Source: Bacteroides sp. (GTDB lineage Bacteria > Bacteroidota > Bacteroidia > Bacteroidales > SM23-62). Taken from it: a stretch of 11,807 nucleotides of DNA. Of this stretch, positions 8,403 through 11,807 are shown in pieces; the stretch's first letter is position 1, and each line of letters opens with the position of its first letter. Where the stretch lies: assembly GCA_030592145.1 (NCBI GenBank), contig JAUVKJ010000019.1, forward strand, positions 1-11,807, in the 5' to 3' direction. The notes under the pieces are model-generated. The model saw nothing but the letters and a program-made list of their open reading frames with translations, ran no database searches and was not told where the DNA came from. Position numbers and translations under genes: made by a program.

Positions 8403-9131
8403 TCAATCGGGGATAAGGATAAACCGCCCGGCGACAAAATCCCAGTTCACTACATTCCAGAAGGCAGCAATATAATCTGCCCTGCGGTTCTGGTATTTCA
8501 GGTAATAGGCATGTTCCCATACATCAATGGTCAGGAGGGGAAATCCTTGTACTCCGGCGATATCCATCAGGGGATTATCCTGGTTCGGAGTAGAAGTAAC
8601 CACCAACCCGGTGCCGGTTTTCACAAGCCAGGCCCAGCCTGAACCAAAACGGCTTGCCGCAGCAGATGAAAAGCTCTTACGGAAGTTCCCGTAGCTGCCA
8701 AAACTTTTCTCAAAAGCTTTCAGAAGATCTCCTTTTGGTTCACCGCCACCCTTAGGCGATATGCTTTTCCAGAATAATTTGTGATTGAAGAATCCACCGC
8801 CGTTATTCCGGATCCCGGCAGGGTACCTGCTAACCTGCCGGAACATTTCCCTGATACCTGTTTCACCCAGGCCGGCTTCCTTAACGGAAGCATTGAATTT
8901 CCGGGTATACCCGGCATGATGCTTACTATGGTGGATCTCCATGGTCATTGCATCAATATAGGGTTCCATGGCATCGTAGGCATAATCAAGTTCGGGTAAT
9001 TTATAAAGGTCTTCTCCGTGGCTGACTGCGGTAAGCATGCCGGCCGCTTTCAGAGTCCCCGGCACAGTCCCTGCAATAGCCCCTCCGATACCAAGAATCG
9101 CGCTGTTTTTCAGAAAAGTTCGCTTGTCCAT
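8403..9131 (-). CDS. Fe/Mn-family superoxide dismutase with N-terminal export signal
   Basis: A 242-residue protein that converts superoxide to hydrogen peroxide and oxygen. Residues ~42-240 align throughout with bacterial Fe/Mn SODs (LPELDYAYDAMEPYID near the start, DVWEHAYYLKYQNRR near the end). Metal ligands are visible: H67, H117, D203 and H207, equivalent to E. coli SodA H26, H81, D167 and H171. The gateway residues Y75 and H71 are also present. GGG at 111-113 and Q184 in NQD match the manganese-type arrangement (E. coli G77 and Q146), so Mn or cambialistic use is more likely than strict Fe use. Unlike cytoplasmic SodA/SodB it carries ~35 extra N-terminal residues: KRTFLK followed by a hydrophobic Gly/Ala-rich segment, which looks like a Tat or Sec signal with KR in place of RR. 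A periplasmic location is therefore inferred. It is divergent from the sigma gene and upstream of, but probably not cotranscribed with, tetR. Confidence 0.93.
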   Translation of the reverse strand: MDKRTFLKNSAILGIGGAIAGTVPGTLKAAGMLTAVSHGEDLYKLPELDYAYDAMEPYIDAMTMEIHHSKHHAGYTRKFNASVKEAGLGETGIREMFRQVSRYPAGIRNNGGGFFNHKLFWKSISPKGGGEPKGDLLKAFEKSFGSYGNFRKSFSSAAASRFGSGWAWLVKTGTGLVVTSTPNQDNPLMDIAGVQGFPLLTIDVWEHAYYLKYQNRRADYIAAFWNVVNWDFVAGRFILIPD

Positions 9132-9157
9132 TTTAACGTGTTTGTTATTTCTAAGAA

Positions 9158-9165
9158 CAAATATA
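9158..9165 (-). promoter_or_regulatory. Candidate -7 box (TATATTTG) for the superoxide dismutase gene
   Basis: On the minus strand TATATTTG fits TAnnTTTG and ends 26 bp before the SOD start codon. No TTTG -33 box is seen at the usual spacing; the nearest TTG is 25 bp upstream. A single-box match only. Confidence 0.4.
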
Positions 9166-9223
9166 GTATTATTAAATGTTTATTTATAATCAATTTAGAT
9201 AAGGTGGGCAAAGGCTTATCACT

Positions 9224-9248
9224 TTTAACATATAATTAAGTATTTTTG
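9224..9248 (+). repeat. Upstream copy of the TTTAACATATAA element
   Basis: TTTAACATATAA (9224-9235) is repeated exactly at 9310-9321, 86 bp further on. The following bases (TATTTTTG, 9241-9248) also fit a TAnnTTTG -7 box, but no -33 box is present. Aligned with the copy at 9312-9334, this copy matches at 16 of 23 positions. It may be a second sigma- or regulator-related site in the sod-sigma gap, or AT-rich coincidence. Confidence 0.3.
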
Positions 9249-9287
9249 GCAAACCGGGAAATCTGCTGCTCCCAGAATCAGTATTCA

Positions 9288-9304
9288 GATAAAATATTTT
9301 TATC
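9288..9304. repeat. 7-bp inverted repeat in the sod-sigma intergenic gap
   Basis: GATAAAA and TTTTATC form a perfect 7-bp inverted repeat around TAT. It lies just upstream of the ECF-like element at 9310-9336. It is very AT-rich, so it would be a weak RNA hairpin; a protein-binding site is the more plausible role if it has one. Confidence 0.35.
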
Positions 9305-9309
9305 AAATA

Positions 9310-9336
9310 TTTAACATATAACAGAAGATTTTGTGC
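9310..9336 (+). promoter_or_regulatory. Candidate ECF-sigma autoregulatory promoter upstream of the sigma gene
   Basis: TTTAAC (9310-9315), 16 bp, TGTGC (9332-9336). The stretch 9312-9334 aligns without gaps with 11356-11378 upstream of porP: 17 of 23 identical, including TAACATAWAACAG. It is 43 bp upstream of the sigma ATG, in the right orientation for autoregulation. The AAC motif 16 bp before a GT core is the usual architecture of ECF promoters. The GT core is less canonical here (TGT) than at porP (CGT). Confidence 0.4.
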
Positions 9337-9379
9337 AACCATTTCCGGCCTGCCTGAGTCTTTACGATAGTTAATTTTT

Positions 9380-9943
9380 ATGCTGGATGAAAAGGAAATA
9401 ATTGAAGGATGTTGCCGGAATGAGAGAAAAGCTCAGAAAGCTCTGTATGAGCGATATGCTTCAATATTACTTGGAGTCTGCATACGGTATTCAGGAAGAA
9501 GGGATGAAGCGGAGGATATTCTGCAGGACGGTTTGATCAAGGTATATTTTAACATAAAGGATTTTGCAGGTAAGGGATCCTTTATCAACTGGATGAAAAA
9601 GATCATGGTAAATACAGCTATAACACATTATCACAGAAACCTGAAACATCATTATCACCAGGATATTGAAGACATCAGGGAAACGGATATTGAGGGGACT
9701 TCTCTGGATACGGCTGAATTTACACGTGAAGAACTGTTGAAGGTCATTAAGGGCCTGCCCCATGGCTACAGGATGGTGTTCAACCTGTATGCCGTTGAAG
9801 GTTTTAAGCATAAAGAAATTGCGAGGATGCTTGAAGTCGATGTAAACACATCAAAATCACAATATTCCAGGGCCAAGAGCCTGATCCGTAAAAAGCTGGG
9901 ATCATTAAAAAAAATAGCAGAAAAGACAGATGAGCAGGAATGA
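9380..9943 (+). CDS. ECF-type RNA polymerase sigma factor
   Basis: A 187-residue sigma-70-family factor of the extracytoplasmic-function class: only regions 2 and 4 are present. Region 2 is about residues 22-90 (YERYASILLGVCIRYSGRRDEAEDILQD, with the core-binding DEAEDILQDGLIKVY at 42-56, then FINWMKKIMVNTAITHYHR for -10 recognition). An acidic linker (about 95-115) follows. Region 4 is about 117-173, with its helix-turn-helix in GFKHKEIARMLEVDVNTSKSQYSRAKSLIRKKL. Length and layout are normal for Bacteroidota ECF factors. Its stop codon overlaps the start region of the next gene, a membrane protein that fits as its anti-sigma factor; such pairs keep the sigma factor inactive until a signal arrives. 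It is divergent from the SOD gene across a 248-bp gap that contains the repeats and candidate promoter listed separately. Confidence 0.93.
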   Translation: MLDEKEIIEGCCRNERKAQKALYERYASILLGVCIRYSGRRDEAEDILQDGLIKVYFNIKDFAGKGSFINWMKKIMVNTAITHYHRNLKHHYHQDIEDIRETDIEGTSLDTAEFTREELLKVIKGLPHGYRMVFNLYAVEGFKHKEIARMLEVDVNTSKSQYSRAKSLIRKKLGSLKKIAEKTDEQE

Positions 9944-11258
9944 TCTGAATATGGAAAAACTGTTTCGTACACAGATGGAATCTTACACTGTGGACCCATC
10001 CCCTGGATTGTGGCAGAAGGTCCATGCAAAGATACTGTGGAAGCAATTCCTGTCATTCAGCTTCCAGACCTTCAATGTATACTACCTCGCCGCGGCCATC
10101 TCACTTGCCGGGATCGGGACCTATGCATGGCTTTCCGATCCGGGAACTGCTGAGCAGGAGCAGTCGGTCCGGGTTTTACCGGAAAGCGATACAAACATTC
10201 CTTCGGAACCCTCTCCTGACGCTGCTGCAGTGGAACAGGAAGCAGTAAAAGGTGCAGAGGCTTTTTCACCGGGGGTCCAAACGCAGGATTCAGTCGTACA
10301 TTCAGACCGTGTAAGTAGTTCAGTTCCCCCGGATGCTGCTACGGAAACCAGACAGGCCTCCCAGCCTGCAGAAGATCAGGATATCAAAAAATCTTCCCTC
10401 GTATCGCCCGAACCTGAAGCCGGTGATCAAACCGGTCAGGAGTCAGGCACATTCCTGGTAAAAGCCGGCTTCAATGCAAGCCTGTTAAGCGGATGTTCAC
10501 CCCTTGCAGTGAACTTCGAGAACCTGTCGGAGAATGCCGTTCAATATAACTGGATCTTCAGCGACGGCGGCAGTTCCACAGAAAATAACCCATCCTATAT
10601 CTTCGACGAACCCGGCGAATACGAAGTGATCCTGAAGATCATCGGGAAGGATGGTCTCGAATACACCACACGGCAAACCATCCGGGTGTTCGAAACGCCC
10701 AAGGCACTCTTCGAACTTGATGAAGATGCGGATCTTACAAACAACCAACCGGTCTACTTTTATAATTACTCCCGAAGTGCAGACTATTATGAATGGGATT
10801 TTGGAGACCGGCAGCATTCCAACCTTGCGGAGCCCATTCACTACTATAATCAGCCGGGAAGTTACAATATCAAGCTAAAGGTCTGGACCGATAAGCAGTG
10901 CTATGATTCCCTTGTCATCATGAATGCCTTTACAGGTCCTGAAAACGAGATACGTTTCCCGAATGCCTTCATCCCGAACATGACAGGTCCCACAGGCGGA
11001 TATTATGATGTGAACGATATTAGTAATACGGTATTCCATCCGCACGTATCGGGCGACCTGATAGAATACAAGCTAAAAATTTTCAACCGGCAGGGACTGC
11101 AGATATTCGAGAGTAACGATGCCGCTTTCGGGTGGGACGGATATTACCAGGAGAAACTCGCAGCTCAGGACGTATACATCTGGAAAGCCAGGGGCAAATT
11201 CAGCAACGGCAAGACTTTCGTAAAAAGCGGTGATGTCACGCTTATCAAGCACCACTAA
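9930..11258 (+). CDS. Putative membrane anti-sigma-like protein with two PKD domains and a T9SS type B C-terminal domain
   Basis: 442 residues with four parts. Residues 1-46 are cytoplasmic and include LFRTQMESYTVDPSPGLWQKVHAKIL, resembling the short N-termini (acidic, Pro-rich, then W..(V/I)) of Bacteroidota membrane proteins encoded beside ECF sigma genes. One transmembrane helix is at about 47-68. A Ser/Pro/Glu/Gln-rich, probably disordered linker of ~100 residues (70-172) follows. Two PKD domains come next, at about 175-254 (YNWIFSDGGSSTENNP) and 258-333 (YEWDFGDRQHS, QPGSYNIKLKVW). The last part, 341-442, is a gliding-motility/T9SS type B domain (RFPNAFIPN, KLKIFNRQGLQIFES, GWDGYY, DVYIWKARG, GDVTLIK). 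The start region overlaps the sigma gene by 14 bp; an alternative ATG at 9951 would remove 7 residues. There is no cleavable signal peptide, so the protein should stay in the inner membrane with its PKD and type B domains in the periplasm. A role as sigma regulator is inferred from context and the N-terminus, not shown. Confidence 0.82.
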   Translation: MSRNDLNMEKLFRTQMESYTVDPSPGLWQKVHAKILWKQFLSFSFQTFNVYYLAAAISLAGIGTYAWLSDPGTAEQEQSVRVLPESDTNIPSEPSPDAAAVEQEAVKGAEAFSPGVQTQDSVVHSDRVSSSVPPDAATETRQASQPAEDQDIKKSSLVSPEPEAGDQTGQESGTFLVKAGFNASLLSGCSPLAVNFENLSENAVQYNWIFSDGGSSTENNPSYIFDEPGEYEVILKIIGKDGLEYTTRQTIRVFETPKALFELDEDADLTNNQPVYFYNYSRSADYYEWDFGDRQHSNLAEPIHYYNQPGSYNIKLKVWTDKQCYDSLVIMNAFTGPENEIRFPNAFIPNMTGPTGGYYDVNDISNTVFHPHVSGDLIEYKLKIFNRQGLQIFESNDAAFGWDGYYQEKLAAQDVYIWKARGKFSNGKTFVKSGDVTLIKHH

Positions 11259-11353
11259 CATCTATCTTGCTAAATATCCTGAATCCCGGTTCATGTAATC
11301 TCCTCAATGATTGCTCAAACAATTGCCTGCTTTTATGGAAATCCGTGACATTT

Positions 11354-11380
11354 TGTAACATAAAACAGCCTCTTTCGTTT
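11354..11380 (+). promoter_or_regulatory. Candidate ECF-sigma promoter for the PorP/SprF gene
   Basis: TGTAAC (11354-11359), 16 bp, CGTTT (11376-11380): an AAC motif and a CGT core at ECF-promoter spacing. It matches 17 of 23 positions with the element upstream of the sigma gene. Predicted transcription would start near 11386, leaving a leader of about 125 nt before the GTG at 11514. The 255-bp gap 11259-11513 also contains a hairpin (next entry) and a weaker housekeeping-like TATCTTAG at 11479-11486, one mismatch to TAnnTTTG, without a clear -33 box. Confidence 0.45.
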
Positions 11381-11389
11381 AATTTAGTA

Positions 11390-11408
11390 TTCTGAAACCT
11401 TTTCAGAA
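11390..11408. repeat. 8-bp perfect inverted repeat (hairpin) in the porP leader region
   Basis: TTCTGAAA and TTTCAGAA are exact reverse complements separated by CCT. The repeat begins 9 bp after the CGTTT box, so in a transcript from that promoter it would lie almost at the 5' end. No T-run follows directly, so a Rho-independent terminator for the upstream genes is unlikely. A 5' stabilising hairpin or a protein site are alternatives. Confidence 0.5.
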
Positions 11409-11513
11409 GTGATTTGTTAATATCTTTTTACAAAGGAATGCCTGAAAAATCGATATTTTCAAGCTTGCTGTTTTTGGCTATCTTAGTAGATTAATCGATT
11501 CGCAACCAGATAC

Positions 11514-11807
11514 GTGAAGAAACTTATCATTATATCGTCCCTTTCACTTCTATGTTTCTTTACGTTTGCACAGGACCCCCAGCTTACTCAATTTTATTCC
11601 GCTCCTTTATACCTGGCACCCTCTTTTGCAGGAGCAACCCAACAGCACCGGCTGGCCGGCACCTATCGTAACCAGTGGCCCGGTGTCCCCGGTGCCTTTG
11701 TGACCTATACATTTTCATATGACCACTTCTTTGAGAATTTCAACAGTGGACTCGGACTATTTATCATGCGTGATGAAGCGGGCTCCGGTGATCTCAGCAC
11801 AACCAAT
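11514..11807 (+). CDS. PorP/SprF family type IX secretion system membrane protein, N-terminal part (3' truncated)
   Basis: 98 codons are visible; the frame is still open at the window end, and family members are usually ~300-340 residues. A signal peptide (KKLIIISSLSLLCFFTFA) ends in FA-QDPQ. It is followed by the family signature QDPQLTQFYSAPLYLAPSFAGATQ; the usual form has NP where this has AP. Then come NQWPG and beta-strand-like FVTYTFSYDHFF and GLGLFIM, the start of the outer-membrane barrel. PorP/SprF proteins work with the T9SS; F. johnsoniae SprF is needed for secretion of SprB, which has a type B C-terminal domain. The GTG at 11514 is the only reasonable start: an in-frame TAG lies at 11487-11489, no ATG intervenes, and the next Met codon is far inside the domain. 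It follows the PKD/type B gene after 255 bp, and the pairing of such genes suggests a functional partnership. Confidence 0.9.
   Translation, partial: MKKLIIISSLSLLCFFTFAQDPQLTQFYSAPLYLAPSFAGATQQHRLAGTYRNQWPGVPGAFVTYTFSYDHFFENFNSGLGLFIMRDEAGSGDLSTTN

Follow-up and report, generated by a model that had tools for sequence, protein, structure and literature searches.

The window analyzed here, the whole of contig JAUVKJ010000019.1 (C322; 11,807 nucleotides) from a draft Bacteroides sp. genome (GCA_030592145.1; 2.0 Mb, 346 contigs, 73% complete), ends in a row of three genes. They encode an extracytoplasmic function (ECF) sigma factor, a 442-residue anti-sigma-like protein bearing a type B sorting domain of the type IX secretion system (T9SS), and a PorP/SprF carrier. 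Comparative genomics supports a T9SS-linked regulatory circuit. In the reading favored here, which is held with somewhat better than even confidence, the anti-sigma-like protein reports the state of PorP or the T9SS from the outer membrane and releases the sigma factor. The architecture, gene order, promoter motif and motif-linked genes are seen in sequence. No report of an anti-sigma factor with a T9SS sorting domain was found among the titles, abstracts and passages seen in searches of one open-licence paper library, PMC8999054 and PMC12045153 among them. Labels beginning with L, G and C are analysis-internal names of loci, genomes and contigs.

The sigma gene product is of ECF type, having sigma-70 regions 2 and 4 only within 187 residues. 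Sigma70_r2 (PF04542, 50.6 bits) and Sigma70_r4_2 (PF08281, 51.6 bits) both exceed their cut-offs, and the top NCBIfam match, TIGR02985, scores 91.6 bits, below its cut-off of 126.4. The initial annotation of this DNA had proposed a 14 bp overlap between the sigma gene and the next gene, with a PorP/SprF gene third in the row, and open reading frame (ORF) calls and domain searches confirm both (Table 1). It had also given the second product a short cytoplasmic N-terminus, one transmembrane helix, a long linker, two PKD domains and a type B domain. This is confirmed: PKD exceeds its Pfam cut-off, and the AlphaFold2 model (mean pLDDT 77.5) has helices at residues 8-16, 27-41 and 50-68, disorder over 71-171 (mostly pLDDT <50) and then confident beta domains. 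The type B assignment is firmer in relatives than in the window, whose own scores are weighed below. The CHU_C cut-off is passed by seven of nine scanned anti-sigmas of the same architecture (27.9-56.5 bits; L043 at 20.5 and L109 at 24.2 fall below) and that of TIGR04131 by two of eight, and in a profile comparison the family's last 110 residues match seven type B cargo proteins with 99.8% probability. The window's domain is a variant with GPxGGYY where GDGxND is usual.

A total of 397 homologues were found, 120 of them listed, and the 106 of 400-520 residues were aligned. Across this alignment the N-terminus is strongly conserved, the type B domain is near-invariant and the linker is variable. 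The window's helix 50-68 has a low hydropathy (1.39 over 19 residues, against a family median of 1.89), and it is preceded by 49 conserved residues that are partly helical in the alignment and AlphaFold2 model. As far as sequence tells, these residues do not bear out a cleaved signal peptide, which the initial annotation had named as a finding that would remove the N-terminus from the cytoplasm. The positive-inside rule is uninformative, as Lys and Arg predominate on the N-terminal side of the helix in 28 of 106 homologues, and it gives no indication of the topology. A sequence search of the window proteins against solved structures returned PKD-type matches only, with nothing significant for PorP. 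In a fold search, whose coverage lay outside the N-terminus, the PKD parts match PKD domains and the remaining matches are common beta-sandwich folds.

Homology supports the N-terminus as an anti-sigma-type domain. A search with its 68 N-terminal positions matched 71 of 392 genomes of the phylum, including the window's own. The matching gene lies directly 3′ of a gene recognized by a model of the window sigma factor in all of 29 further loci (L051-L079), and such a sigma gene stands within about 360 bp upstream in all 29 loci L140-L168, which belong to the window's taxonomic order. Pfam outer-membrane barrel families were detected in five of eight scanned proteins of the former set (two above cut-off, three below) and in five of ten of the latter (one above cut-off). 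A model built from ten presumed barrel proteins recognizes 28 of 117 sigma partners, the ten counted in. By profile comparison the N-terminus matches barrel proteins of the same order with 99.7% probability and those of other orders with 97.0%, the barrel rows themselves having come from searches with a model of this N-terminus. In a tree of 79 sigma factors, made by a quick method and with many weak forks, the sigma factors of partners ending in the type B C-terminal domain (CTD) and those of barrel-type partners lie next to each other within one group of the window's order. One kind of cytoplasmic domain is thus combined in some proteins with a barrel and in others with PKD domains plus a T9SS signal. 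At five loci of the order (L153, L162, L163, L164 and L168) it occurs twice in tandem before the transmembrane helix.

Conservation of the sigma gene beside this architecture, on which the initial annotation had staked its proposal, is general. One set of loci was assembled by way of the C-terminus, using PKD/CTD peptides, and comprises the window and 60 named loci, all labelled as metagenome-assembled genomes (MAG); 55 carry the N-terminal model. The sigma gene lies directly upstream in 49 of the 51 loci with 700 bp of upstream sequence (misses: L108 and L138), and PorP lies directly downstream in 45 of the 50 that extend 700 bp past the anti-sigma gene (misses: L085, L087, L089, L112 and L125). 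With sigma near-copies removed, PorP follows in 20 of 24, among anti-sigmas as low as 32% in identity. The N-terminal model also matches 143 of 295 genomes of the order, and 40 regions were fetched round these matches, 20 of them coinciding with L140-L168 places. Sigma adjoins in all 40, which divide into 20 CTD-type and 20 barrel-type loci (L205 being classed by terminus only). PorP is next in none of the 20 barrel-type loci; a few of the regions extend less than 1 kb downstream. The locus L085 lies on a contig labelled Acidobacteria that holds a close copy of the pair, with a sigma factor 70% identical to the window's; it is probably a mis-binned Bacteroidota contig.

The window ends within the PorP gene, and its last 141 bases recur identically at the start of contig C183 from the same genome, which completes the protein with the tail IPCPEF. 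PF11751 scores 168.5 bits for the remainder on C183, compared with 84.3 bits, above its cut-off, for the 98 residues in the window. Beyond PorP, C183 carries counterparts of the OmpH-like and glycosyltransferase genes found after PorP in relatives. Among the PorPs of 300-380 residues from L080-L139, a C-tail cysteine is present in 49 of 49, in the PCPEF form in 47. It occurs in four of 29 PorPs examined from eight genomes, in which 66 PorPs are listed: L004 (the window's genome), G678, G499 and G016. The cysteine-tailed PorP of the last three is not adjacent to the anti-sigma gene. A further PorP of G016 has the tail KCPQF and matches less strongly, and in G013 a PCPEF carrier lies about 6 kb from the anti-sigma gene. 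All five genomes have a CTD-type anti-sigma. In SprF, C-tail cysteines are described as forming a disulfide that links the carrier to the moving track (PMC12635249).

Large cargo proteins have CTDs 43-48% identical to the window's (L133, L134, L392 and the promoter-motif targets L271 and L319), and that of another motif target, L269, is 23% identical. In L134 (1-9721) a giant CTD-bearing cargo gene takes the anti-sigma's place before PorP, followed by two genes of OmpH-like and glycosyltransferase size. Given these similar CTDs and this arrangement, the anti-sigma could compete with real cargo for one carrier. The cysteine-tailed PorP of genomes with CTD-type anti-sigmas, whether adjacent or not, is probably a dedicated carrier. 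The PorP gene is likely co-transcribed with the sigma operon, and no terminator-like site was found on the + strand in 9100-11807. A separate PorP promoter was rejected, as the gaps before PorP hold no ECF motif and TAnnTTTG is not in excess in them (7 of 46 gaps; 3-14 in 20 shuffles). The window's own gap (11259-11513) contains the conserved stretches TTTCGTTTAATT and ATCGATATTTTCAA, in common with congeners L080 and L084 (L084 having the first stretch only), and may hold a promoter or leader.

An ECF-like promoter motif before the sigma operon is supported by comparison of upstream regions. The pattern GCAAC-N18-GTCT occurs in 26 of 51 sigma upstream regions of the order, and in at most 10 in each of five shuffles. 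Aligned sites read TGCAACC(A/T)TTT-N13-GTC(T/A), with GCAACC starting mostly 42-48 bp 5′ of the start codon. Sites scoring at least 9 accompany 37 of 45 CTD partners, 3 of 8 short-tailed ones and 8 of 25 barrel ones, the last being the eight barrel loci of this order. Among the nearest published findings is an ECF-type promoter motif that precedes T9SS genes in Flavobacterium psychrophilum (PMC9723704).

Targets of the motif were sought with TGCAACYNTTTN13GTCNT, somewhat looser than the strict form, with the reversed pattern as control. The pattern gave 34 matches against 2 reversed in a CTD group of 26 genomes and 20 against 0 in a barrel group of 15. In the CTD group, a CTD-bearing pair establishes the type of 24 genomes; G025 is barrel-type and G599 untyped, and neither of these two has a match. 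In the barrel group G653 and G562 are untyped and G036 has both kinds, and none of the three has a match; the types of G501 and G540 were checked for the group comparison. With three sigma operons and two matches at contig ends left out, 29 CTD-group matches were examined. They precede six genes with type B signals above cut-off (L269, L270, L271, L319, L322 and L325), one with a type A signal (L337) and one with CHU_C at 26.6 against a cut-off of 27 (L338). Of the others, L339 had no sorting domain found, L327 (outside the Pfam scan) had no match to a custom type B model, five are cut by contig ends (L328, L331, L332, L333 and L336), five precede short or other ORFs (L272, L315, L317, L321 and L323) and nine precede no ORF by the rule used. 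The barrel group, with three sigma operons set aside, left 17 examined matches: four type A genes above cut-off (L340, L346, L353 and L354), one cut, six other ORFs and six without an ORF.

Targets with T9SS signals above cut-off therefore number six type B and one type A in the CTD group, against none and four in the barrel group (Fisher 0.015). In the five genomes that contain type B targets, 16-31% of all T9SS signals above cut-off are type B, these shares being upper bounds in two genomes where type A counts are at least 150. Against this background, at least six of seven type B has P = 0.0006, or P = 0.04 with one vote per genus; four of four type A in the barrel group is not above background (P 0.29). 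The type B target L269 is followed by a PorP-OmpA gene. An earlier search of 12 genomes, which tolerated one mismatch, produced 46 matches and 15 for the reversed pattern, with several lipoprotein-like genes and one barrel among the targets, and in G000 and G004 a weak candidate motif lies near a response-regulator gene.

Barrel-type anti-sigmas possibly form a parallel circuit for type A cargo. Genes directly 3′ of them carry type A signals above cut-off in 10 of 12 cases, the 12 being hand-picked from 20 loci; L196 scores 25.4 (cut-off 27) and L187 is cut. The gene in L182 combines a type A score of 54.5 with CHU_C at 28.2. In L181-L186, L190, L193, L203 and L206 the gene after the barrel-type anti-sigma encodes a secreted protein, often rich in PKD domains, with a type A signal.

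Type B domains are described as binding cognate PorP/SprF carriers, whose genes usually lie directly behind them (PMC12618676; PMC9143113). In a protein that also has an anti-sigma-type domain, such binding would most simply mean a protein reaching from the sigma factor to an outer-membrane carrier and reporting the state of the carrier or the T9SS. The N-terminus would hold the ECF sigma factor at the inner membrane, while the transmembrane helix and disordered tether would extend the PKD and type B domains towards the outer membrane, where the latter may dock on the PorP/SprF carrier of the next gene. The state of that carrier, whether free, loaded with real cargo or engaged with the translocon, would reach the anti-sigma and lead to release of the sigma factor. 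Once released, the factor would transcribe its own operon, probably the carrier too, and in relatives type B cargo genes. With a separate PorP as docking barrel, the protein would work like a Dma regulator with its barrel in trans. Deletion of Dma frees its sigma factor (PMC13088901), and loss of outer contact may well do so here; a shortage of free PorP would then raise PorP. The cargo genes among the motif targets fit the opposite sign better, with export activity freeing the sigma factor as in FlgM. The initial annotation, which had the type B domain act as a decoy or reporter that releases the sigma factor when export is blocked or PorP is scarce, is partly supported.

Several observations weigh against carrier-state reporting by the anti-sigma. 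The window's own type B domain lies just below the curated cut-offs (CHU_C 25.2 against 27; TIGR04131 24.7 against 35). None of the 46 gaps between anti-sigma and PorP genes holds an ECF motif, and the site at 9334-9362 is the only exact strict match in the window's genome, marking only this operon. Many of the motif sites found elsewhere, indeed most, precede short, cut or no ORFs, and some precede lipoproteins. In L043, a CTD-type locus, the next gene is type A, a counterexample, while a type B gene follows in L046 and, with one gene between, in L357. In many loci of the C-terminal set conservation extends to the flanking genes, so the gene order is partly plain synteny and not fully independent evidence. 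PorP is next in only 2 of the 20 CTD-type loci found through the N-terminus (L180 and L191), as opposed to 45 of 50 by the C-terminal route. The row of three in the initial annotation is thus general as regards its sigma gene, whereas PorP adjacency is bound to certain clades, the window's among them.

Other readings divide over what the outer part of the protein does. It may sense another cue, such as a surface ligand or envelope damage, with the type B domain merely placing the protein at the outer membrane or surface. This is somewhat unlikely, although Dma2 has been proposed to sense an unknown glycan (PMC13088901), PKD domains are common in surface proteins and type B domains are described as anchoring proteins to PorP-like barrels (PMC9143113); the match between a type B signal and type B cargo would then be coincidence or an effect of shared location. 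A checkpoint of the FlgM kind, in which a working T9SS or PorP pulls or captures the type B domain and inactivates the membrane-bound anti-sigma, would restrict cargo synthesis to times when export is possible. FlgM carries an export signal and frees its sigma factor for late cargo; the anti-sigma described here likewise has a signal for export, and the genes linked to the motif in relatives are type B cargo. The PorP C-tail cysteine is invariant, and SprF cysteines are described as tying the carrier to the moving track (PMC12635249). Yet the transmembrane anchor and PKD domains are needless for simple export, the sequences give no sign of pulling or cleavage, and the release of sigma on Dma deletion (PMC13088901) fits contact loss as trigger equally well, which leaves such a checkpoint unlikely. 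In a broader proposal, which is tentative and in our estimate doubtful, an inner-membrane anti-sigma carries its cargo's type B signal, a working T9SS/PorP frees the sigma factor for type B cargo, and sister sigma factors of the same order, whose anti-sigmas have a built-in barrel, are linked to type A cargo, so that the sensor on each anti-sigma would match the cargo branch under its control.

A further possibility is that the linker is cleaved, so that the outer part becomes a T9SS-exported surface protein and the N-terminal remnant regulates the sigma factor. The linker is long and variable, and PorP lies directly next, as with normal type B cargo. However, the linker alignment of the 106 homologues has no conserved cleavage site and the two halves are kept together in one protein in every one of them, and cleavage is judged improbable. 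The initial annotation had also allowed that the sigma factor and surface protein are only neighbors. Conserved outer flanks in many loci imply that local gene order changes slowly in this lineage and would favor this view, but sigma adjacency in the four sets of loci above (49 of 51, 29 of 29, 29 of 29 and 40 of 40, the last two of which overlap) holds across families, flanks and partner C-termini, and chance neighborhood, now very improbable, was rejected.

The protein resembles in layout the Dma anti-sigmas, described with an N-terminal domain, transmembrane helix, disordered tether and barrel (PMC13088901), having a putative sigma-binding N-terminal domain, a single helix, a long disordered tether, a predicted outer-membrane part and an adjacent ECF sigma gene. 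It differs in that two PKD domains and a type B domain replace the C-terminal barrel and the PorP barrel is a separate gene. The likeness rests on homology to the barrel proteins of the same layout found here, and Dma1/2 are likened by layout. As in type B cargo with its PorP (SprB/SprF and Fjoh_3952/3951; PMC12618676, PMC9143113), a probable type B CTD follows PKD domains and PorP/SprF is next, whereas here an anti-sigma-type N-terminus and transmembrane helix appear to replace the signal peptide and a sigma gene stands before. The PorA-PorXY-SigP pathway of Porphyromonas gingivalis likewise places a CTD protein upstream of an ECF sigma factor controlling T9SS genes, but PorA is described as a small surface protein acting via a two-component system, not as an anti-sigma (PMC7712824).

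FlgM and sigma-28 are a comparable pair, in that the anti-sigma carries an export signal and the regulon includes export cargo. FlgM, however, is a soluble protein that a type III system exports in its entirety, whereas the protein described here has a transmembrane helix and a T9SS signal. To our knowledge, how T9SS carriers and machinery are matched to cargo outside PorXY-SigP is a largely open field. With a family of anti-sigmas that bear an export signal, a promoter motif in common and cargo genes behind that motif, the matching of carrier and cargo can be put directly to the test. The family further suggests a modular build of trans-envelope anti-sigmas, in which one cytoplasmic domain is coupled in cis to a barrel or carries a signal addressing a barrel in trans.

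Table 1. Features of the sigma, anti-sigma and PorP/SprF row, in window coordinates
Feature	Position	Strand	Basis or remark
Promoter motif TGCAACCATTT-N13-GTCTT	9334..9362	+	GCAACC begins 45 bp 5′ of sigma start codon
ECF sigma factor, 187 aa	9380..9943	+	Pfam Sigma70_r2 and Sigma70_r4_2 above cut-off
Anti-sigma-like protein, 442 aa	9930..11258	+	ORF, Pfam, homologue alignment, AlphaFold2
Anti-sigma-type domain, cytoplasmic by homology, residues 1-49	9930..10076	+	Profile searches and comparison
Probable single transmembrane helix, residues 50-68	10077..10133	+	AlphaFold2 helix; hydropathy
Disordered variable linker, residues 71-171	10140..10442	+	pLDDT mostly <50; poor conservation
PKD domain 1, residues ~180-253	10467..10688	+	Pfam, AlphaFold2, fold comparison
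PKD domain 2, residues ~259-335	10704..10934	+	Pfam, AlphaFold2, fold comparison
T9SS type B sorting domain, residues 341-442	10950..11255	+	Pfam/NCBIfam, alignment, profile comparison
PorP/SprF carrier, first 98 aa, GTG start at 11514	11514..11807 (contig end)	+	PorP_SprF 84.3 bits

Elsewhere in the window, a divergent Fe/Mn superoxide dismutase gene occupies 8403-9131; L109 likewise has a superoxide dismutase gene close to the pair. The N-terminus of the window's enzyme, MDKRTFLKNSAILGIGG, resembles what we take to be a twin-arginine leader, and the enzyme is perhaps exported. Between 2130 and 8294, a TetR-type regulator identified by Pfam stands next to three genes that by sequence appearance resemble an RND efflux pump, its adaptor and an outer-membrane factor.

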